This document shows, piece by piece, positions 4,096 through 24,239 of a DNA stretch of 41,918 nucleotides. Source of the DNA: an uncultured Opitutia bacterium (GTDB taxonomy: Bacteria; Verrucomicrobiota; Verrucomicrobiia; Opitutales; Opitutaceae); assembly GCA_903839035.1 (NCBI GenBank), contig CAIMAQ010000085.1:1-41918 (forward strand). The letters run 5' to 3'. Under the pieces are notes generated by a model. The model worked only from the letters and a program-made list of their open reading frames with translations. It was not told where the DNA came from and searched no databases. A program made the position numbers and the translations under genes. Numbering within the stretch: the stretch's first letter is position 1; each line of letters opens with the position of its first letter.

Positions 4096-5507
4096 CCATC
4101 CTCCCGCTCCATCCGGCGAACAACGCCTCGCCCGAGGCGCTCGAGGCGTTTCTCGCGCAGTGCCGCGCGGCGGCGGTGAAGGAGGGACACGCCAAGCTCG
4201 TGAGCATCTCCCTCGCGGTCGGCGCGCTTGATCCGCTGGCCGTGCTGGAGTCCATCTTCGAGCCGGGCGAACCGCATTTTTATGCGGAGCGCCCCAGCAT
4301 CGAGAGCGCGATCGCCGGCGCGGAGGTCGCGGTGGCCCACGAGGCCCACGGGCCCGGTCGCTTTGCGGAGATCCAGCGGTTTATCGATGAAACCCTCGCG
4401 CACACCATTGCGGTCGGTGACGTGGAGGCGCCGTTCGGCGGGCCGCATTTTTTCACGGCGTTCGCGTTCCACCACGAGACGGAGGCCGGCGGCGCGTTTC
4501 CGGCCGCCCGCGCCTTCGTGCCGCGCTGGCAGGTCGCGCGCGCGGGGGCGACCACGACCGCCGTCGCCAACCTGCTGGTCACGGCGGACGCCGACCTGGC
4601 GCTGCTCGCGTCGCGCGTGTGGCGGGCGCACGGGAAGTTTGCGCAGTTCCGCTACCGGGAATCGAATCACGCGGCGGCGGCCGCCGGACCGGATTTTTCC
4701 ACGCGCGAGGCCGGCGACTACCGGACGGCCGTGACCCGCGCGCTGACCCGCCTGGCGGCGGGCGAGTTTGAGAAAATCGTGCTGGCCCGGGCGATTGACC
4801 TGACGCTCCCGCAGCCGCTGCACCCGCTGCGCGTGCTCAACGGGCTGCGCCAGCTCTTTCCCGACTGTTATGCCTTCTCGCTGGCGAACGGGCGCGGCCA
4901 GAGCTTCATCGGGGCGAGCCCCGAACAGCTGGTCCGCGTGAGCAAGGGCACCCTTGAGACCGCGGCGCTGGCCGGCACGACTGGCCGCGGAGTGGGCGCG
5001 AGCGAGGACGCCACGCTCGGGGCGGCGCTGCTGCACAGCGAGAAGGACCTGCGGGAGCACCGGTTCGTGGTCGATACCATCACCGGGCGGCTGGCGCAGC
5101 TGGGCCTGAAGCTGGAGTTCTCGGCGCAACCGGGACTGCGCCGGCTGGCGAACGTGCAGCACCTGCACACGCCGATTCTAGCGGCGCTGCCGGAGAATGT
5201 GCGCCTGCTTCAGACCGTGGGCTGGTTGCATCCGACGCCGGCGGTCGGGGGGACGCCCATGGATGCGGCGCTGGCCTGGATCCCGGAACTTGAGGGGTTT
5301 CCCCGCGGGCTCTATGGCGGTGCCATCGGCTGGGTGAATGCGCGCGGCGGCGGCGAGTTTTTTGTCGGAATCCGTTCGGCGCTGGTGGACGGCGCCACGG
5401 CGCGGGTGTACGCGGGGGCGGGCATCGTGGCCGGCTCGACGCCCGAGAAGGAGTTTGCCGAAACGGAGCTAAAGTTTAAAGCCATGCTCGGCGCGCTTTG
5501 CGCCTGA
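4092..5507 (+). CDS. menF: Isochorismate synthase (menaquinone pathway)
   Basis: This enzyme converts chorismate to isochorismate, the entry step of the classical menaquinone pathway. The 471-residue protein has the chorismate-binding fold in its C-terminal two-thirds: EFEKIVLARA (catalytic Lys near 228), IGASPEQLVRV (about 273-283), GTTGRG, LLHSEKDLREH, VQHLHTPI, HPTPAVGGTP, FPRGLYGGAIGWVN and the Mg-binding end YAGAGIVAGSTPEKE. The N-terminal third is variable, as is usual. The start is a GTG at 4092 whose first bases overlap the metG TGA (GTGA); the reading frame is open further upstream, but that stretch lies inside metG. A salicylate-pathway isochorismate synthase would look similar, but menD follows 13 bases later, which supports menF. 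Confidence 0.93.
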   Translation: MTILPLHPANNASPEALEAFLAQCRAAAVKEGHAKLVSISLAVGALDPLAVLESIFEPGEPHFYAERPSIESAIAGAEVAVAHEAHGPGRFAEIQRFIDETLAHTIAVGDVEAPFGGPHFFTAFAFHHETEAGGAFPAARAFVPRWQVARAGATTTAVANLLVTADADLALLASRVWRAHGKFAQFRYRESNHAAAAAGPDFSTREAGDYRTAVTRALTRLAAGEFEKIVLARAIDLTLPQPLHPLRVLNGLRQLFPDCYAFSLANGRGQSFIGASPEQLVRVSKGTLETAALAGTTGRGVGASEDATLGAALLHSEKDLREHRFVVDTITGRLAQLGLKLEFSAQPGLRRLANVQHLHTPILAALPENVRLLQTVGWLHPTPAVGGTPMDAALAWIPELEGFPRGLYGGAIGWVNARGGGEFFVGIRSALVDGATARVYAGAGIVAGSTPEKEFAETELKFKAMLGALCA

Positions 5508-5520
5508 CCACCGCCCGACG

Positions 5521-7257
5521 ATGCTCGATTTCCGCAACACCAACAGTCTCTGGGGCAGCGTGCTGGTGGAAACCCTGCACCGCCTCGGCGTGACGCATGC
5601 GGTCATCTCCCCCGGCTCGCGTTCGACGCCGCTGACGATGGCCTTCGCGCGGCAGGCGGGGATCGAGTCCATCCCGGTGCTGGATGAGCGCTCCGCGGCA
5701 TTTTTCGCCCTGGGCCTGGCGAAGCGGCACCGCCGTCCGGTGGTCCTGCTTTGCACCAGCGGCACGGCCGGGGCGAATTATTATCCCGCGGTGATCGAGG
5801 CGCAGGAGAGCGGCGTGCCGCTGCTCATTCTCACCGCCGACCGGCCGCCGGAGATGCGCGAGTGCCGCTCGGGGCAGACGATCGACCAGCAGAAGCTCTA
5901 CGGCAGCCACGTGAACTTTTATCATGAGCTCGCCGTGCCGGTCGCGAGCCTGCCGATGCTGCGGTATTTGCGGCAGACGCTGGTGCACGCCGTGGAGCGC
6001 ACGCAGTTTCCCGTGTCCGGCCCGGTGCAGCTCAATGCGCCATTCCGCGATCCCTTGCCACCCATCGAGGATGGCAGCGCCGCCGCGCTCAAGGCGACCC
6101 TGGATGAGGCGGAGTTCTTCAGCGGTGTGCAGCCGCCGCTGCGGGCCAGCGCGCTCTTGGAGTCGCTCGATTTCCCCGGCGCCAGCCGCGGCATCATCGT
6201 CGTCGGACCGTGCGAGGAAGGCCTGTCGCCAGTGGACATCGGCGTCATCGCCGGTTTCGCGCGGGACACGGGCTGGCCCGTGCTGGCCGACACGCTGTCG
6301 GGCCTCCGCGGTGATGCCGGGCATTTTTCCAACCTGATCACGCGATATGACGCCATTGTGCGCAGCGCGGCGGGCGGCGCCAAACTGAAGCCAGATCTGG
6401 TGCTGTGCCTCGGGGGCTGGCCCACGAGCAAGCCGTTGCGCGCCTGGTTGGAGGCCTGCGCCCCCGAAATCTGGCTGGTGACGGCGCGGGCGCAGAATCT
6501 CGATGCGCTGCACCTGACCACCCATCACGTACGCGGCGGATTGCGGGCCTTTGTGGGCAGTGTGGTGGTGGAAGGGAAGGGCCCGGCGGATTATGCCGAG
6601 GCTTGGCGCCGGGCGGAGGCGGCAGCCGGGACGAGCCTCGCCCGCGCGCTGGCGAAGGCGCCGGAGAATTTTGAAGGCCAGACGACGGTGCGGCTGGCGC
6701 AGCACCTGCCCAAACTCACGCCGGTGTTTGTGGCGAATTCCATGCCGGCGAGGGATGTGGAGTATTTCTGGCCGGGTACGGACCGGGCGCCGCAGTTTTT
6801 CTTCAACCGCGGCGCGAACGGCATCGACGGCACGCTGTCGACGGCGCTCGGGGTCGCGCACGGGCACCGTCCGGCGGTGCTGCTGACGGGCGACCTGGCG
6901 CTGCTGCACGACGCGAACGGGTTCCTGCTCGGGCCGAAATTCAAGGGCAGCCTGACCATCGTGCTGATCAACAACAACGGCGGTGGAATTTTTGAACACC
7001 TCCCGGTGGCCTCATTCAACCCGCCGTTCGAGGAGTTTTTTGCCACGCCACAAACGGTCGATTTCAAGAAGCTCTGCGCGGCTCACGGGGTGGGCTACAC
7101 GCTCGTGCGCGACAGAGAGCACTTCACGGGGCTGATCGCCAAGCTCCCGAAGAGCGGGATTCGCGTGCTGGAGCTGCGGACCGACCGGAAGAAGGATGCC
7201 GCCTTGCGGAAGAAGATTTTCGCCGAGGCGGCGAAGGTGGCGGAGCGGGTGGTCTGA
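5521..7257 (+). CDS. menD: 2-succinyl-5-enolpyruvyl-6-hydroxy-3-cyclohexene-1-carboxylate synthase (SEPHCHC synthase)
   Basis: This thiamine diphosphate enzyme joins isochorismate and 2-oxoglutarate, with loss of CO2, to make SEPHCHC, the second step of menaquinone synthesis. The 578 residues match the family length. The N-terminal pyrimidine-binding domain has VISPGSRSTPLTMAF and the activating Glu in VLDERSAAFFALG (E56). The C-terminal domain has the ThDP/Mg motif beginning GDLALLHD (about 457) and ending in INNNGGGIFEHLP (about 483-495). ATG 5521 follows menF by 13 bases in the same operon. It converges on kup, whose stop lies 18 bases away, and I see no clear terminator in that gap. Confidence 0.97.
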   Translation: MLDFRNTNSLWGSVLVETLHRLGVTHAVISPGSRSTPLTMAFARQAGIESIPVLDERSAAFFALGLAKRHRRPVVLLCTSGTAGANYYPAVIEAQESGVPLLILTADRPPEMRECRSGQTIDQQKLYGSHVNFYHELAVPVASLPMLRYLRQTLVHAVERTQFPVSGPVQLNAPFRDPLPPIEDGSAAALKATLDEAEFFSGVQPPLRASALLESLDFPGASRGIIVVGPCEEGLSPVDIGVIAGFARDTGWPVLADTLSGLRGDAGHFSNLITRYDAIVRSAAGGAKLKPDLVLCLGGWPTSKPLRAWLEACAPEIWLVTARAQNLDALHLTTHHVRGGLRAFVGSVVVEGKGPADYAEAWRRAEAAAGTSLARALAKAPENFEGQTTVRLAQHLPKLTPVFVANSMPARDVEYFWPGTDRAPQFFFNRGANGIDGTLSTALGVAHGHRPAVLLTGDLALLHDANGFLLGPKFKGSLTIVLINNNGGGIFEHLPVASFNPPFEEFFATPQTVDFKKLCAAHGVGYTLVRDREHFTGLIAKLPKSGIRVLELRTDRKKDAALRKKIFAEAAKVAERVV

Positions 7258-18338: not shown

Positions 18339-18400
18339 CGATCTGGCTTCGTGAATAGCTTTCGCTTGCGCGATTGCGGGCGGGTGGGGTTAGCTGGGGC

Positions 18401-19525
18401 ATGATTATCGATCCCCGCATCACCCAGCTGGCCGAAGGTTTGATCGGCTTCTCCACCGACCTCAAGAAAGGCGAGCGCGTCCTGATCGACGCGTTTGACG
18501 TGCCGGACTCCGTCATCATCGCCCTGATCCGCTCCGCCCGGAAGCGCGGCGCCCATCCCTATGTGCAGAACCACCGGGCCCGCATCACCCGCGAGCTATC
18601 CCTGGGGGCCGAGGAGGCGCAGTTCGCGCCGCATGCGGATGTGGAGCTGGCCCGGATGCAGAAAATGGACGCGTACATCGCGCTCCGGGGCTCGGACAAT
18701 ATTTTTGAAGGCTCCGACATCCCGGCGGAAAAGGTGCAGCTGGTGAGCCGCCTGATGAAGCCCGTGCTGGATCATCGCGTCGGCAAGACGAAGTGGGTCG
18801 TGCTCCGCTGGCCGACCTCATCCATGGCCCAGCAGGCGGGCATGAGCACGGAGGCGTTCGAGGAATTCTACCTGCGGGTCTGCACGCTGGATTACAGCCT
18901 GCTTACGCCCGGCATGGCGGCGCTCAAGAAGCTGATGGATGCCACGGACCGCGTGCACATCAAGGGCCCGGGGACGGACCTGCGCTTCTCGATCAAGGGC
19001 ATCGGCTCCCAGCCCTGCGGCGGGCTGCGCAACATCCCGGACGGCGAGGTGTTTTCCTGCCCGGTCAAGGACAGCGTCGAAGGCTACGTCCAGTACAATG
19101 CCCCGACGGTCTACCTCGGCACCTCCTTCGATAGCATCCGCCTCGGTTTCAAGCAGGGCAAGATCGTGGAGGCGACGTCGAGCAACACCAAGCGCCTGAA
19201 CGAAATCTTGAACAGCGACGCGGGCGCCCGGTACATCGGCGAATTCGCGATCGGCTTCAACCCGTACATCCTCGAGCCGATGCGCGACATCCTGTTCGAC
19301 GAGAAGATCGCAGGCAGCTTCCACTTCACCCCGGGCCAGGCCTACGACGGCGTGGGCAACGGCAACAAGTCGCAGGTGCACTGGGACATGGTCTGCATCC
19401 AGCGGCCGGAATACGGCGGCGGAGAGATCTGGTTCGACGACGTGCTGATCCGCAAGGACGGCCTGTTTGTCCCGAAGTCGCTGCACAAGCTGAATCCGGC
19501 CTACCTGCTCAGCAAGGTGGCGTGA
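18401..19525 (+). CDS. M29-family aminopeptidase
   Basis: The protein is 374 residues, a metallo-aminopeptidase of the thermophilic aminopeptidase T/PepS family that trims N-terminal residues in the cytoplasm. Metal-site residues are visible in order: Glu in [12 protein letters not shown], Glu in [12 protein letters not shown], His in [20 protein letters not shown], and His/Asp in VHWDMV. The N-terminal domain begins [16 protein letters not shown] and carries [19 protein letters not shown] 18401 is preferred over an in-frame start at 18374 that would add nine non-conserved residues. Its TGA overlaps the ATG of the next gene by one base, so the two are probably co-translated. Confidence 0.92.
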
Positions 19526-20499
19526 TGCGGGCCTTCATCCAGGCGCTCCCGAAAACGGAGACACACCTCCATGTCGAGGGCGCGCTGCCGTACGAGCTGC
19601 TGACCGCGTGGCAGCCGGCGCGCTACCCGGCGAACCCGCCGTTCCGCCGCGCGGACTACCGCTACGAGACGTTTCCGGACTTCGAGCGGATCCTGCTCGA
19701 GAACGCGCTGCCATGGTTCACCACGCCGCAGCGCTACTATGAGGCGACCAAGGTGATGTTTACGAAGCACGTCGCCCAGAATGTCCGCTACGTGGAGACG
19801 AGCTTTCACCTGCCGGTCACAAAATTCATCAACACGCCCGGCCCGGAGATCATCGCGGCGATCCGCGCGGCGGTGCCGGCGGGCCTCGAGGTGAGGATTT
19901 TCACCGGCATGTTGCGCAGCGACATCGCGGGTGACCTGCGCCCGGTGATCAACCAGCTCCACACCTGGGACGGCCTTGCCGGCGTGGACCTGCACGGCTT
20001 CGAGCAAATGCCCACCGAACCCGCCACCGCGGCGGTGTGGGCGAAACTGCGGGCGGCGGGTAAGGTCACCAAGTGCCATGCAGGCGAGTTCGACGGGCCG
20101 GCCCGGGTGCGCGAGGCCATCGAGGTCCTGGGCGTCACGCGCATCCAGCACGGCGTCCGGGCGATCGAGGATCCGGCCGTGGTGCGGCTGGCGGCGGAGC
20201 GCGGCGTGACCTTTGACGTCTGCCCGATCAGCAACATCCGCCTGAAGGTTTTCCCGAGTTTTGCCGCGCACCCGATCCGGCGGCTCATGCAGGCCGGAGT
20301 GAACTGCACGGTGAGCACGGATGATCCGCTCTGTTTTGCGAACGCGCTAAACGACGAGTACGTCGCGCTGGCGGACGGATTGCAGTTTACGCGGGCCGAG
20401 CTCGCGCAGGCCGCCCGCAACGGCTGGGCCGTGGCGAATGTTTCGGCGGCCACCCGCAAAGCCGCGCTGGACGAAATCGCGCGGGTGGAGAAGCTGTAG
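19525..20499 (+). CDS. Adenosine/adenine deaminase-family amidohydrolase
   Basis: This 324-residue zinc hydrolase should remove the amino group of a purine. Conserved residues: H14 and H16 in [12 protein letters not shown]185 and E188 in KCHAGEFD, H209 in IQHGVRAI, and the acid pair D266-D267 in [19 protein letters not shown] (about 233-243) is closer to the CPLSNxKL of adenine deaminases than to the corresponding stretch of classical adenosine deaminases, so adenine is a real possibility. Aminodeoxyfutalosine deaminase is also in this superfamily, but the window carries the classical menaquinone route. A GTG at 19522 is in frame, but ATG 19525 overlapping the aminopeptidase stop is the natural start. 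Confidence 0.88.
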
Positions 20500-20524
20500 G
20501 CGGCTCCGCCTGGGGCCGTTCCTC

Positions 20525-21556
20525 TTGAATACACTTTACACCGTTCCCGACGGCATCCGCCAGCTGCGGGCCGACAAGGCGCTTTCCCTGTCGCACCGCG
20601 ACCACAGCCGCGTGGCGTTTCGCCGCGCCTTTGACGCCGGCCTGGTGACGCGCCGAGGTCAGGTCCTCGTGCCCGACTCGCCCGTGGTGGGCGGTGATGT
20701 GCTGGAATTTTCCTTTCCCGACCTGAAGCCGGCCGACCTCAAGGCGGTGGACATCCCGCTCGATGTGATTTTCGAGGACAAGCAGCTGCTCGCGGTGAAC
20801 AAGACCGCGGGCATGATCGTGCACCCGGGTGCGGGGACGGGAGAGGACACGCTGGTGCACGCGCTGCTGGCGCATTGCAAAGGCGGGCTCAGCGGCATTG
20901 GCGGGGTGGAGCGCCCGGGAATTGTGCACCGCCTCGACCGCGAGACATCGGGCATCATCCTCGTGGCCAAGACCGACAAGGCCCATCGCGGGCTGGCGGA
21001 GCAGTTCTCCGAGCGGGCGCTGCAGAAGGAATATCTCGCCCTGGTCACGGGTGCCACCGCGCTGATGAGCGGCTCGATCCGGAAGGCGATCGGGCGCAAC
21101 AAGCAGCACCGGCACAAGATGGCGCCGGTGGAGGCCGAGCAGGGGGGGCGCGATGCGCACACGGATTGGGAAGTGGTCGAGCGTTTCGGCCCGGTGGCCA
21201 CGCTCGTGCGCTGCACCATCCACACCGGCCGCACCCACCAGATCCGGGTGCACCTGAAATCGCTTGGACATATTTTACTCGGCGACGAGGTTTATGGCTG
21301 GAAACCCGATCCCCGCCTGCCGAAGCAGCCGGAGCGCGTGATGCTCCACGCGGAGCACCTCGTGTTTGAGCATCCCCTCACGCACAAGACGATTGACCTG
21401 CGCGCGCCGCTCCCGCCGGACATGGCGGCGATGCTGAAGCAGCTGCGCAAGGTGGCGGCCGCCGGGGCCAAGGCCCGGAAGCTGATCGCCCAGCCCGTCA
21501 AACCGCGCGGCAAGACCAAGCCGCCGCCGTTTCACCCGCACGAGTCGCGGCTCTGA
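20525..21556 (+). CDS. RluA/RluD-family 23S rRNA pseudouridine synthase
   Basis: The enzyme converts specific uridines in large-subunit rRNA (or tRNA) to pseudouridine. The 343 residues start with an S4-like RNA-binding region (about 10-65), followed by the catalytic domain: ILAV-type segment LLAVNKTAGMIVHPG, catalytic Asp in RPGIVHRLDRETSGI, LQKEYLALV and the C-terminal TIHTGRTHQIRVHL. The tail is basic and Pro/Lys-rich. There is no good ATG; TTG 20525 gives MNTLYTVPDGIRQL, a plausible N-terminus, and the longer frame from 20438 overlaps the deaminase gene. Paralogue identity (RluC or RluD) is not settled. Confidence 0.9.
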   Translation: MNTLYTVPDGIRQLRADKALSLSHRDHSRVAFRRAFDAGLVTRRGQVLVPDSPVVGGDVLEFSFPDLKPADLKAVDIPLDVIFEDKQLLAVNKTAGMIVHPGAGTGEDTLVHALLAHCKGGLSGIGGVERPGIVHRLDRETSGIILVAKTDKAHRGLAEQFSERALQKEYLALVTGATALMSGSIRKAIGRNKQHRHKMAPVEAEQGGRDAHTDWEVVERFGPVATLVRCTIHTGRTHQIRVHLKSLGHILLGDEVYGWKPDPRLPKQPERVMLHAEHLVFEHPLTHKTIDLRAPLPPDMAAMLKQLRKVAAAGAKARKLIAQPVKPRGKTKPPPFHPHESRL

Positions 21557-21569
21557 GCCCGTTCCGATC

Positions 21570-23240
21570 ATGGATCCACTTCGCCAGACGACGAGCGATC
21601 TGACCAATGAGTGGGCGCGGCTGCTGGCGCCGCATTTTGGACCGAACGGCAGCATGGATCTCGATCTGATCGACTGGCCGCAGGCGGAAGGCCCGTCGTA
21701 TTACAACCAGTTCAGCCATTTTGCCTTCTTGCAGCTCGCCACGGGCGAGGTGCCCGGGGCGGCGGCGGCGGAGCGGGCGCACTACCTGACGCTCGCGCTG
21801 CACAACCTCGAGTACGCGCTGGGCATCACGGCGGCGGATTTTCACACGCCGCATTTTTCCCGGGGGCGGGAGTGGGGCCGGCACATCGGGGAGTGGCTCA
21901 ACTATTACCTGCTGTGTTCCCTGGAGGTGATGGAACGCCACCAGCTCGGCAGCGCGGAACTGCGCTCGCGGCTGGCCGCGGCGGTGGTGGGCGCGGTGGG
22001 TGCCTTGCACACGAAATTTGTGGCCAAATATGCCGCGACGCCGGCGGAGTTTGTCGGCAACCACGACACCTGGCACGGGCTGCTGTTCTACCGGGCGGGC
22101 CGGCACTTCCAGCGCGCCGAGTGGCGAGACTATGCCCGGGATTTTTTTGCGCGCTGCGTGCTGCCATTTCAGACGGCGGACGGGTACTGGCCCGAGGGCC
22201 ACGGCATCGTGGTGGGTTACGCGCTGGTGACCGCGCAGGCGGTTTCACTCTATGCCGAACTGTCGGGCGACGAGGCGGCACATGCGGCCATCGGGCGGTT
22301 CTTCGGCTTCCATGAATTCTTCAGCCTGCCCGATGGCACGACGGCGGTCGCAGTGGATGTGCGGATGCGCGCCACCCGCATGCCCTTCCTGTTCCTGCCG
22401 CCGGGGTTTGTCGGCTGTGACGAGGGGCGGGAACTGGTGCGGGCTCGGCTGGAGTCAGCGCGGGTTTATTTCCGGGACGCTGGCGTGCACGACAACGGCG
22501 CCCAGAGCTTCGCCTTCTTCGCTTCGTTTGCGGAATATGTGTTCAACCCGGATGTCCGGCCGCGGGAAATCAAGGTCGACCGGCCGGCGACCTTGCCCGT
22601 GGCACGCCTTTCCCGGGGTGACTGGCGGGCCTATCTCGGCTGGCAGCTGGTCCCGGAGCATCCGAGCCGCTTCGTACTGGACAGCCAGAATTTCATCGAG
22701 CTCTGGCACCGGCGGGCCGGCTATCTGGTCGGGACGGGCGGGAGCAAGTTCATGCCGCGTTTTTCCACGCTCCGCCGCACCGATCAGGGCCGGGCTTACA
22801 TTCCGGAACGGGCGGCCAGCGTCAAAGTCAGCCCGGAGGCGGCGGATGTGACCTTTGGTTTCGGTCCGGACGATATCGTTGTTGGCCTGGAACTGGCCGG
22901 TGAAACTTGCCGACTCACCGTTCGACTGGCCCGCCCGACTCAGGCGGGGTATGACGCCGCGCTGTTGGTTGCGTTCCGTCCGGGGGAAATCCTGCGGCTG
23001 GACGGAGTGAGCCAAACCCTCGAGCCGACCACCCTGGTGCATTTCAATGGGGGCGGAAAACCCGTACGAGAAATGCGCTGGCGCGGGCTGACCTGGCGGC
23101 TACCGGAGGGGACCGTGCTGGATTATCCCATCGTGCCGCACAATTCGTATACGCAAGACGGCCTGCCCAAACCGGAGGATTATGTGGGGCGAATCAGTTT
23201 TCCCGTGTCGGTGACCGGGCAGGTGGTGGAGATCGCTTGA
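21570..23240 (+). CDS. Uncharacterised 556-residue protein with lyase-like two-domain layout
   Basis: I do not recognise this gene. Residues 1-280 are helix-rich, with aromatic and charged clusters typical of an alpha/alpha toroid (FVGNHDTWHGLLFYRAG at about 161-177, DGYWPEGHGIVVGYALVTAQ at about 204-223). From about 345 on it looks all-beta (DWRAYLGWQLV, RLTVRLARPT, TTLVHFNGGGKPV). This layout, and N164/H165, H211 and Y217, recall polysaccharide lyases of the heparinase/hyaluronate lyase type. There is no signal peptide, so it appears cytoplasmic, which suits oligosaccharide breakdown or another role entirely. It starts 13 bases after the pseudouridine synthase gene and is likely co-transcribed with it. 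The lyase idea is an inference from layout only. Confidence 0.75.
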   Translation: MDPLRQTTSDLTNEWARLLAPHFGPNGSMDLDLIDWPQAEGPSYYNQFSHFAFLQLATGEVPGAAAAERAHYLTLALHNLEYALGITAADFHTPHFSRGREWGRHIGEWLNYYLLCSLEVMERHQLGSAELRSRLAAAVVGAVGALHTKFVAKYAATPAEFVGNHDTWHGLLFYRAGRHFQRAEWRDYARDFFARCVLPFQTADGYWPEGHGIVVGYALVTAQAVSLYAELSGDEAAHAAIGRFFGFHEFFSLPDGTTAVAVDVRMRATRMPFLFLPPGFVGCDEGRELVRARLESARVYFRDAGVHDNGAQSFAFFASFAEYVFNPDVRPREIKVDRPATLPVARLSRGDWRAYLGWQLVPEHPSRFVLDSQNFIELWHRRAGYLVGTGGSKFMPRFSTLRRTDQGRAYIPERAASVKVSPEAADVTFGFGPDDIVVGLELAGETCRLTVRLARPTQAGYDAALLVAFRPGEILRLDGVSQTLEPTTLVHFNGGGKPVREMRWRGLTWRLPEGTVLDYPIVPHNSYTQDGLPKPEDYVGRISFPVSVTGQVVEIA

Positions 23241-23300: not shown

Positions 23301-24239
23301 TTACAATGTGTCCAGGGCTTCCGCGACGAGGCCGTAGCGGAGATTGAAGAGCGAGTGACGGAAACTCGTAAACCGACCGCGCTCGGCCAGGGCAATGAGC
23401 GTGGCAAGGGCTGTCGGAAACACGTCGGCGCGCGCGGCCGGCAGTCCCGGCACTTGGCGGCGGGCCGCGAGCGGCAACGCGCCGAGCTCATGCAACAGGG
23501 AGCGCAGCGTGGCCAAGTCCACATCGGAGGCCGTGGCTTCCAGGCCCACTCCGCGCCGGGCAGCCAGAATGGTGCGAACCGTGGTGACCGTTCCACCGGT
23601 GCCGACGGCGACGGAGCCGGGCGGCAGGTTGAATTCAAAGCCGGATCGGGCGAGCGCGTCAGCGCAATGAGCGGTAATGCGCTGGGCGGATTCCGTGGAG
23701 AAGGTCGCGGCCGGATCGGGAATAAATTTTTCGGTGAGGCGCACGCAGCCCAGCTGCAGGCTGACGGTCTGGGTTACCTGGCGGTCGCGAAACGTCAGGC
23801 ACTCGAGGCTGCCGCCACCGAGGTCGAAGACATAGAAATCCCGGAGGGTCGCGAGCGCGGGGTCGCACGTGAGGCCGCGGCCGATGAGATTGGCCTCCTC
23901 GTCACCGGTCAGGATCCGGATGGTCTGGCCGGTGGCGGCGCGCACGCGTTCGCGGAATTCCGGGCCATTCGCCGCGTCGCGCACAGCGCTGGTGGCCACG
24001 AGCACGGTCCGGGTCGGGCTAAAGGGCGCGGCGTCAGCGAGCAGCGCGCGGATGGCCTCGAGGCCGCCGGTCATTCCGTCCTCGGACAGGCGCGGGGTGG
24101 CGGAGCTGATGCCGGCGCTGATGCGGGTGTCGATTGTGCGGTATTTCAGGACTTCGACGCCGTCATTCGCCGCGCGCTGGGCCACGAGAATCTTGATCGA
24201 GTTGCTGCCGATATCGATGACGGCGACGGAGGGATTCAT
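23301..24239 (-). CDS. Ppx/GppA-family exopolyphosphatase / guanosine pentaphosphatase
   Basis: The protein is 312 residues of the ASKHA fold and should hydrolyse terminal phosphates of polyphosphate or pppGpp. It has the phosphate-1 motif VAVIDIGSNSIKILV (5-19), ATSAVRDA, the catalytic Glu region LTGDEEANLIGRG, phosphate-2 FDLGGGSLECL, and GTGGTVTTVRT. It is the short, two-domain form without the C-terminal HD-like domain of the roughly 500-residue E. coli Ppx. Polyphosphatase versus pentaphosphatase cannot be decided. It has an AGGAG upstream, but only one base from the ATG. It lies downstream of rsmI on the same strand, separated by a repeat-containing gap. Confidence 0.92.
   Translation of the reverse strand: MNPSVAVIDIGSNSIKILVAQRAANDGVEVLKYRTIDTRISAGISSATPRLSEDGMTGGLEAIRALLADAAPFSPTRTVLVATSAVRDAANGPEFRERVRAATGQTIRILTGDEEANLIGRGLTCDPALATLRDFYVFDLGGGSLECLTFRDRQVTQTVSLQLGCVRLTEKFIPDPAATFSTESAQRITAHCADALARSGFEFNLPPGSVAVGTGGTVTTVRTILAARRGVGLEATASDVDLATLRSLLHELGALPLAARRQVPGLPAARADVFPTALATLIALAERGRFTSFRHSLFNLRYGLVAEALDTL

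Follow-up and report, generated by a model that had tools for sequence, protein, structure and literature searches.

A conserved Opitutaceae protein with a predicted lyase-type toroid and sandwich fold and an arginine at the apparent position of the sandwich histidine

The window analysed here, a stretch of 41,918 nucleotides from an uncultured Opitutia bacterium, carries on its forward strand an open reading frame that starts with ATG and encodes a protein of 556 residues, with the same boundaries as in a preliminary description made from the sequence alone. The frame is genuine and conserved, and its codon-position composition is coding-like (GC1/2/3 = 0.69/0.48/0.79). It stands in a run of same-strand genes that includes an LpxK-family gene (PF02606), an M29 peptidase gene (PF02073), an adenosine-deaminase family gene (PF00962) and a pseudouridine synthase ORF (PF00849), the last ending 13 bases upstream of the target, which agrees with the position after a pseudouridine synthase described earlier. 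No uronate gene was found among the seven window neighbours scanned. The first ATG of the pseudouridine synthase ORF falls within the deaminase gene, and its true start probably lies later than position 20438.

Table 1. Features of the locus, in window coordinates
Feature	Position	Strand	Basis
Whole gene; predicted lyase-fold protein, clade 1 of the new family	21570..23240	+	ORF, homologs, AlphaFold model
Predicted helical toroid domain, residues 1-330	21570..22559	+	DSSP of model; VIA over 1-330; hhalign to PL17-type lyases, residues 115-320
Predicted β-sandwich domain, residues 336-556	22575..23237	+	Folded alone; VIA rows
N164-H165, putative carboxylate neutraliser / NH motif	22059..22064	+	Conservation; alignment to NH of PL17-type lyases
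E209 of the W-x-E motif preceding Y217	22194..22196	+	62/65; meets Glu in PL17-type and L147/L149 profiles
H211, named in the preliminary description, not conserved	22200..22202	+	His in 8/25 clade-1 rows
Y217, putative catalytic acid/base	22218..22220	+	Conservation; 53 residues past N164; register uncertain
R367, apparent position of the lyases' sandwich His	22668..22670	+	Arg in 64/65; motif alignment by eye
H380, conserved sandwich His, 13 residues past R367	22707..22709	+	63/65
K393, basic residue 26 past R367	22746..22748	+	Lys 60/65, Arg 5/65; equivalence to PL33 Y470 by spacing only
Pseudouridine synthase (RluD type), upstream neighbour	20438..21556	+	PF00849
Adenosine-deaminase family gene	19522..20499	+	PF00962
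M29 peptidase family gene	18374..19525	+	PF02073
Ppx/GppA phosphatase family gene, downstream, convergent	23301..24239	-	PF02541

The locus is conserved across Opitutaceae. Comparison of 18 loci (17 from the homolog search, plus L203) placed RluD upstream of the target in 16 and Ppx/GppA downstream in 17; L047 ends at a contig edge upstream, and only L055 has a different neighbourhood. Upstream of the target the frame stays open for 28 codons that contain no ATG, GTG or TTG, and so no leader-bearing longer form is concealed there. The N-terminus shows no hydrophobic character (0.01 on a crude hydrophobicity score), and the protein is apparently leaderless and cytoplasmic; the earlier view that it has no signal peptide is thus upheld as far as tested.

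Searches with the Pfam and NCBIfam models gave no match to the 556-residue protein at E<=10. The same threshold returned no match to Hepar_II_III_C (PF07940), Hepar_II_III_N (PF16889) or Alginate_lyase (PF05426) when the window protein and 15 further members were scanned with Pfam; a member at the L084 locus has two sub-threshold matches of non-lyase kinds, both in a C-terminal extension. Searching the PDB by sequence turned up nothing beyond chance matches, the best being a magnetosome protein at E 0.013, and the literature titles and abstract openings contained no mention of the family. As far as tested against these libraries and texts the family appears to be new, in keeping with the suggestion that the gene was a candidate for a new enzyme family. 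The 3.4 Mb window genome contains 12 matches to Hepar_II_III_C (on G000:C46, C2, C79, C91 and others) and none to GH88; it is lyase-rich and lacks the usual unsaturated-uronyl hydrolase.

The closest named record comes from an uncultured Opitutae bacterium, whose protein is 94% identical. Counting the window genome itself each time, a full-length ortholog is present in 9 of 57 genomes (eight among the genus's 12, and one elsewhere), in 19 of 200 Opitutaceae genomes and in 3 of 288 in a phylum-wide sample, all three Opitutaceae. Proteins 45-49% identical (L060-L064) were found in metagenome-assembled genomes (MAGs) labelled Latescibacterota, Gemmatimonadaceae, Lentisphaeria, Lentisphaerae and Verrucomicrobia. 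One in-frame TAG interrupts an otherwise full-length ortholog (L031, in G127:C34; L059).

Judged from the 65 sequences compared, the family seems to comprise three clades. Clade 1 holds the window protein and its orthologs (25 rows); clade 2 (25 rows) consists of paralogs that share about 25-32% identity with the window protein; the 15 proteins of clade 3 come from the group that was searched around the Gemmatimonad genome. The label "orphan" given to the gene earlier does not hold, as the window genome carries a second paralog, about 30% identical (G000:C42). In a quick tree of the 65 rows clade 1 lies on one side of a branch with SH-aLRT 100; the split between clades 2 and 3 is not clean, and L196 is a long-branch outlier. 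Of 23 loci from the homolog search, L059 (in-frame stop) and L066 (fragment) were excluded. Clade 3 was assembled from 16 hand-chosen loci minus L201, whose frame is broken, with the outlier L196 retained and the starts trimmed by pattern in several rows.

The AlphaFold model of the window protein (22 aligned sequences; pLDDT 89.4, pTM 0.91) is mostly helical up to residue 325 and has strands from residue 344, as assigned by DSSP. Foldseek against the PDB gave 84 matches at E<=0.001, of which a PL33 lyase was the best (E 5e-11), followed by PL35, PL15 and PL17; PL8 is also among the top ranks, PL12 and the dermatan sulfate (DS) epimerase appear by rank 15, and lower matches include glycosidases such as GH146 and GH9. 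The leading lyases have TM-scores of 0.40-0.55, with an rmsd of 8-13 Å over the full length. Among the 50 VIA matches listed, the top ones are proteins that match the toroid alone, led by the cellobiose 2-epimerase 9l8i (Z 23.0, 309 residues, 3.4 Å, over residues 1-330). AGE-type sugar 2-epimerases consist of a single toroid domain with catalytic residues of their own, whereas the window protein has a second domain. Only two of the 50 span both domains: human DS-epimerase 1 (6hzn; Z 19.8, 459 residues, 3.8 Å) and a PL35 chondroitinase (9o3q; Z 19.1, 451 residues, 5.3 Å).

Folded alone, the β-sandwich reached a pLDDT of 80.2, and its top VIA match was the PL17 structure 9irq (Z 13.6, 193 residues, 3.4 Å). 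By eye, PL8-superfamily lyases and DS-epimerase account for 38 of the 50 matches listed for the sandwich (Z 12.0-13.6). Mutarotase-like domains are level with them to within one Z unit and are the best sandwich matches in Foldseek; the predicted sandwich is therefore of the mutarotase-like kind common to these lyases. It is close to certain, on the strength of these models, that the protein is built of a helical toroid and an antiparallel β-sandwich, the fold of the lyase/epimerase superfamily (PL8/12/15/17/21/33/35/39). The lyase-like architecture proposed in the preliminary description is borne out by the predicted fold, which is closest to PL33, PL35, PL15, PL17 and PL12 lyases and to DS-epimerase.

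A link to the lyases can also be detected between profiles. Clades 1 and 2 were combined into a profile of 50 rows, with matches below 450 residues and near-duplicates excluded, and we aligned it with eight profiles of lyase-type proteins taken from genomes of the same family. A PL17-type set of six proteins aligned by hhalign at P 7.7e-5 to 8.9e-5, the only lyase set below 1e-4, and placed N164-H165 on the NH of 'ihNHgTW'. Its score of 46.9 compares with a maximum of 29.8 among 100 block-shuffled decoys, and with 21.8 for a reversed profile, 18.4 for GH88 and 20.5 for a PL5-like set. The L149/L150 profile followed at P 1.1e-3; with the remaining six, no alignment reached significance (P 0.024-0.23). 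The PL5-like profile (P 0.096) was not significantly detected, and its alignment does not lie over the NH motif. A global hhalign against PL17 gave nothing, and with the sandwich alone only the strand at W352 was aligned (best P 0.0041). AlgL17 gave a sub-threshold hmmsearch match (E 0.72), again with the NH motif aligned.

The alignments agree on N164 and E209 but differ at Y217. With L149, and with L147 (P 0.059, not significant), N164 falls on an Asn, and E209 and Y217 fall on the Glu and Tyr of 'EQS.(D/G)YN'. The PL17 alignment concurs for N164, H165 and E209, but sets Y217 opposite a Pro; G212 and I213 stand opposite the two Tyr that come after the Glu in PL17. The placement of Y217 may therefore be off by roughly one helical turn: Y217 lies eight residues past E209, two of the hhalign alignments insert three residues here, and the 'EGxSYW' motif of L088 and GAGase II has its Tyr, inferred from numbering to be catalytic, four residues past the Glu. 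The spacing of 53 between N164 and Y217 lies at the lower end of the 53-63 that published residue numbers give for the superfamily from the toroid Asn (or His/Asp) to the Tyr; in PL33 (BtPL33HA), the best Foldseek match, N238 and Y291 are also 53 apart, and in PL35 and PL12 the spacing is 54.

Conservation favours these toroid residues. N164 is present in 25/25, 20/25 and 15/15 rows of clades 1, 2 and 3 (60/65 overall), E209 in 25/25, 22/25 and 15/15 (62/65), and Y217 in 25/25, 20/25 and 15/15 (60/65). H165 is confined almost wholly to clade 1 (25/25, against 1/25 and 0/15); Ile stands there in 20/25 clade-2 and 14/15 clade-3 rows, and in these two clades a His comes directly ahead of the Asn in 15/25 and 15/15 rows. 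N164, H165 and Y217, all named as candidates in the preliminary description, are thus invariant in clade 1. The fourth, H211, is His in just 8/25, 2/25 and 0/15 rows, and we rejected it as a catalytic residue.

On the sandwich side the pattern is different from that of the lyases. Residue data for the known enzymes come from published accounts (PMC11848413, PMC12088678, PMC8006597, PMC8511899). The sandwich His is essential by mutation in PL33 (H444) and PL35 (H401), and the PL39 counterpart is H405. The lyase-type pattern 'His, +4 acidic, +7 Asn/Ser', found in L149, L147 and L140, reads by eye as R367, D371 and N374 in the window protein, so that R367 appears to occupy the position of the lyases' sandwich His. 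R367 is conserved in 25/25, 24/25 and 15/15 rows (64/65), D371 in 25/25, 23/25 and 15/15, and H380 in 25/25, 23/25 and 15/15 (63/65). Published tables give an Asn-to-His distance of 184-220 in families with a sandwich His; H380 (216) and R367 (203) both fit, and H380 was set aside as the direct stand-in because the pattern read by eye puts R367 there. The second His of the HxH motif is never His (Val, Ile, Leu or Gly in 58/65). Position 393 is Lys in 60/65 and Arg in 5/65. No conserved Tyr, judged by motif, stands at the distance of PL17 Tyr450 (position 404); Y410 and Y385 were rejected as a second Tyr, being invariant in clade 1 only. From the alignments, then, the toroid Asn, Glu and Tyr look to be kept and the sandwich side rewritten toward positive charge.

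Each known system resembles the window protein in part. PL17 (Alg17c, AlgL17) shares the toroid and sandwich and the N-H motif followed by T-W, and is the top VIA match when the sandwich is compared by itself; however, its Tyr258 is not met by Y217 in the profile alignment, its His413 (PMC12088678) and Tyr450 (PMC11848413) are not seen by motif, with R367 present instead, and the window protein matches neither PF05426 nor PF07940. In PL33, H444 reads Arg here, and the H444-Y470 distance (26) lands on K393, by spacing only. PL39 (6JP4) has the same Asn-His order (N186-H187) and, following Table 4 of PMC12088678, 53 residues to Y239, numbered Y259 in PMC11848413; its H405, too, reads Arg in the window protein. 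The order is reversed in GAGase III of PL35 (H188-N189), whose His is needed for alginate cleavage according to PMC12088678. The PL5 enzyme Smlt1473 works with N167-H168, Y222 and R215, R215 assisting N167 in carboxylate neutralisation and the Tyr serving as both base and acid (PMC8511899). These are the residue types proposed for the window protein, but R215 of Smlt1473 sits on helix α-7, whereas the Arg here comes from the sandwich.

From the computed fold, conservation, family structure, conserved locus and missing leader we infer an activity and a substrate: the window protein would be a cytoplasmic uronide β-eliminase, with Y217 as acid/base and N164, perhaps with R367, neutralising the carboxylate. 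We give this reading a probability of roughly 0.5. In Smlt1473, Asn, His, Tyr and Arg suffice for β-elimination, and a Tyr-driven β-elimination on a uronide is therefore the most likely reaction. A uronic-acid-containing oligosaccharide would bind in the cleft between toroid and sandwich; its C6 carboxylate would be neutralised by N164 with the help of R367, much as R215 helps N167 in Smlt1473; and Y217 would abstract the C5 proton and hand it to the leaving O4 in a syn β-elimination, H165 being a possible base for the opposite C5 configuration. Such an oligo-uronide lyase would carry R367 and K393 where PL33 has His and Tyr, and would do without the usual HxH motif. Because the Asn-His order is that of Smlt1473 and PL39, which are mannuronate/alginate enzymes, a mannuronate-like substrate is our first guess by analogy.

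Several findings count against a β-eliminase. The essential sandwich His reads Arg, Y217 faces Pro in the best-scoring (PL17) alignment, and most lyase-type profiles are non-significant; the toroid alone is closest to sugar 2-epimerases, and the best sandwich matches in Foldseek are mutarotases. The genomic context adds neither a uronate gene among the window neighbours nor a coupling to GH88, which occurs in 2/8 genomes of the genus with the target gene vs 4/4 without it (Fisher p 0.06); within the genus, unsaturated-uronyl hydrolases were accordingly rejected as partners. Of the proposal that the protein is a lyase or a novel enzyme on oligosaccharides, the fold and the placement of N164-H165 on the PL17 NH stand, while the apparent replacement of the sandwich His by R367 leaves both options in play.

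Ranked by likelihood, β-elimination comes first, other chemistry or binding second and epimerisation third. The second, a possibility we entertain tentatively, is that the fold has been kept for another oligosaccharide reaction (hydrolysis, isomerisation) or for mere binding, with R367, H380 and K393 marking a changed active site. It draws on the near-invariant Arg in place of the key His, on H380 and on the Lys or Arg at position 393 in 65/65 rows, as well as on the toroid-only matches to AGE-type epimerases and glycosidases and the sandwich matches to mutarotases. The toroid Asn, Glu and Tyr, kept in three clades (60, 62 and 60 of 65), are not obviously needed by a binder. A further-reaching proposal, which we consider doubtful, is that the three-clade family has swapped the sandwich His, second Tyr and HxH for R367, K393 and H380 and catalyses a reaction new to the fold, clade 1 acting in envelope biosynthesis on an acidic glycan that is cytoplasmic and perhaps attached to a lipid or nucleotide. 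The envelope-glycan element is suggested because an LpxK-family gene lies in the gene run of the window and because a Gemmatimonadota member lies in a glycosyltransferase/carbamoyltransferase cluster.

That cluster also bears on the third reading, which we think improbable: a uronyl C5-epimerase like the human DS-epimerase, returning the C5 proton on the other face of an uncut glycan that is being assembled on the cytoplasmic side. The Gemmatimonad gene (L061) has a glycosyltransferase on one side and a carbamoyltransferase on the other; Wzy_C and a PGM/PMM-family enzyme belong to the same cluster, whose make-up suits biosynthesis. A second genome of the Gemmatimonad's group (L201, G546:C88, ~5019-6172) has the same Wzy_C/glycosyltransferase/carbamoyltransferase cluster, its clade-1 gene being in pieces in several frames through either sequencing error or decay. 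DS-epimerase 1 is also the better of the two both-domain VIA matches, and the lack of positive GH88 coupling suits an enzyme of this kind. However, of the residues published for DS-epimerase 1 (His205, Tyr261, Tyr473 and His450, with Mn ligands His452, Glu470 and Asn481), H205, Y473, H450 and the Mn ligands have no clear counterparts by motif, the invariance of Y410 is limited to clade 1, the human protein is a Golgi enzyme, and the other neighbourhoods examined are not obviously biosynthesis clusters. It is very unlikely that the window protein simply belongs to a known PL family and was overlooked by the libraries: it has the same fold and the sub-threshold AlgL17 match, but no Pfam lyase model matched 16 members while Hepar_II_III_C matched 12 times in the same genome, and the sandwich His is apparently not conserved.

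If the protein is a lyase, β-elimination would proceed in a superfamily branch without the hallmark sandwich His, and the family would test how far Tyr alone supports the reaction; if it is not, the fold would have acquired a new reaction. Either way the family extends over Opitutaceae and MAGs labelled Lentisphaerae, Latescibacterota and Gemmatimonadaceae, where the Pfam lyase models miss all 16 members scanned.

The neighbourhoods of clade 3, within about 8 kb, include sulfatases (L189, L194), DHDPS-family aldolases (L187 and L197, which are mutually syntenic), enolase-superfamily enzymes (L195, L200) and an Ldh_2 gene (L195), a set that would suit sugar-acid breakdown; the neighbours of L191, PrmA and a spermine-synthase-like gene, are not of that type.

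Export seems to vary across the family. Leader-like starts by the crude hydrophobicity score occur in 18 of 25 clade-2 rows (five low, two unscored), and no leader is apparent by eye in clade 3, where the starts are uncertain. These starts, the three clades and the apparent replacement of His by R367 had escaped the preliminary description. In clade 1, four of the 24 scored rows reach 1.4 (L025, L026, L063, L064), and the start of L025 looks like a TAT leader. The TAT model TIGR01409 scored L012 above its cut-off, L014 just below and L010 weakly, and did not match L016. L203 (G142:C22, 7986-9830, minus strand), a clade-1 ortholog at the same locus in another Opitutaceae genome, has an in-frame, TAT-like SRRAFLRR ahead of the conserved start, with a TAT model score of 13.9 against a cut-off of 16.7; export may have been lost or gained inside clade 1. 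At L084 (G375:C5:18000-35115), four clade-2 paralogs in tandem all have leader-like starts, as do several similar proteins that flank them, and the arrangement looks like a degradation or surface locus.
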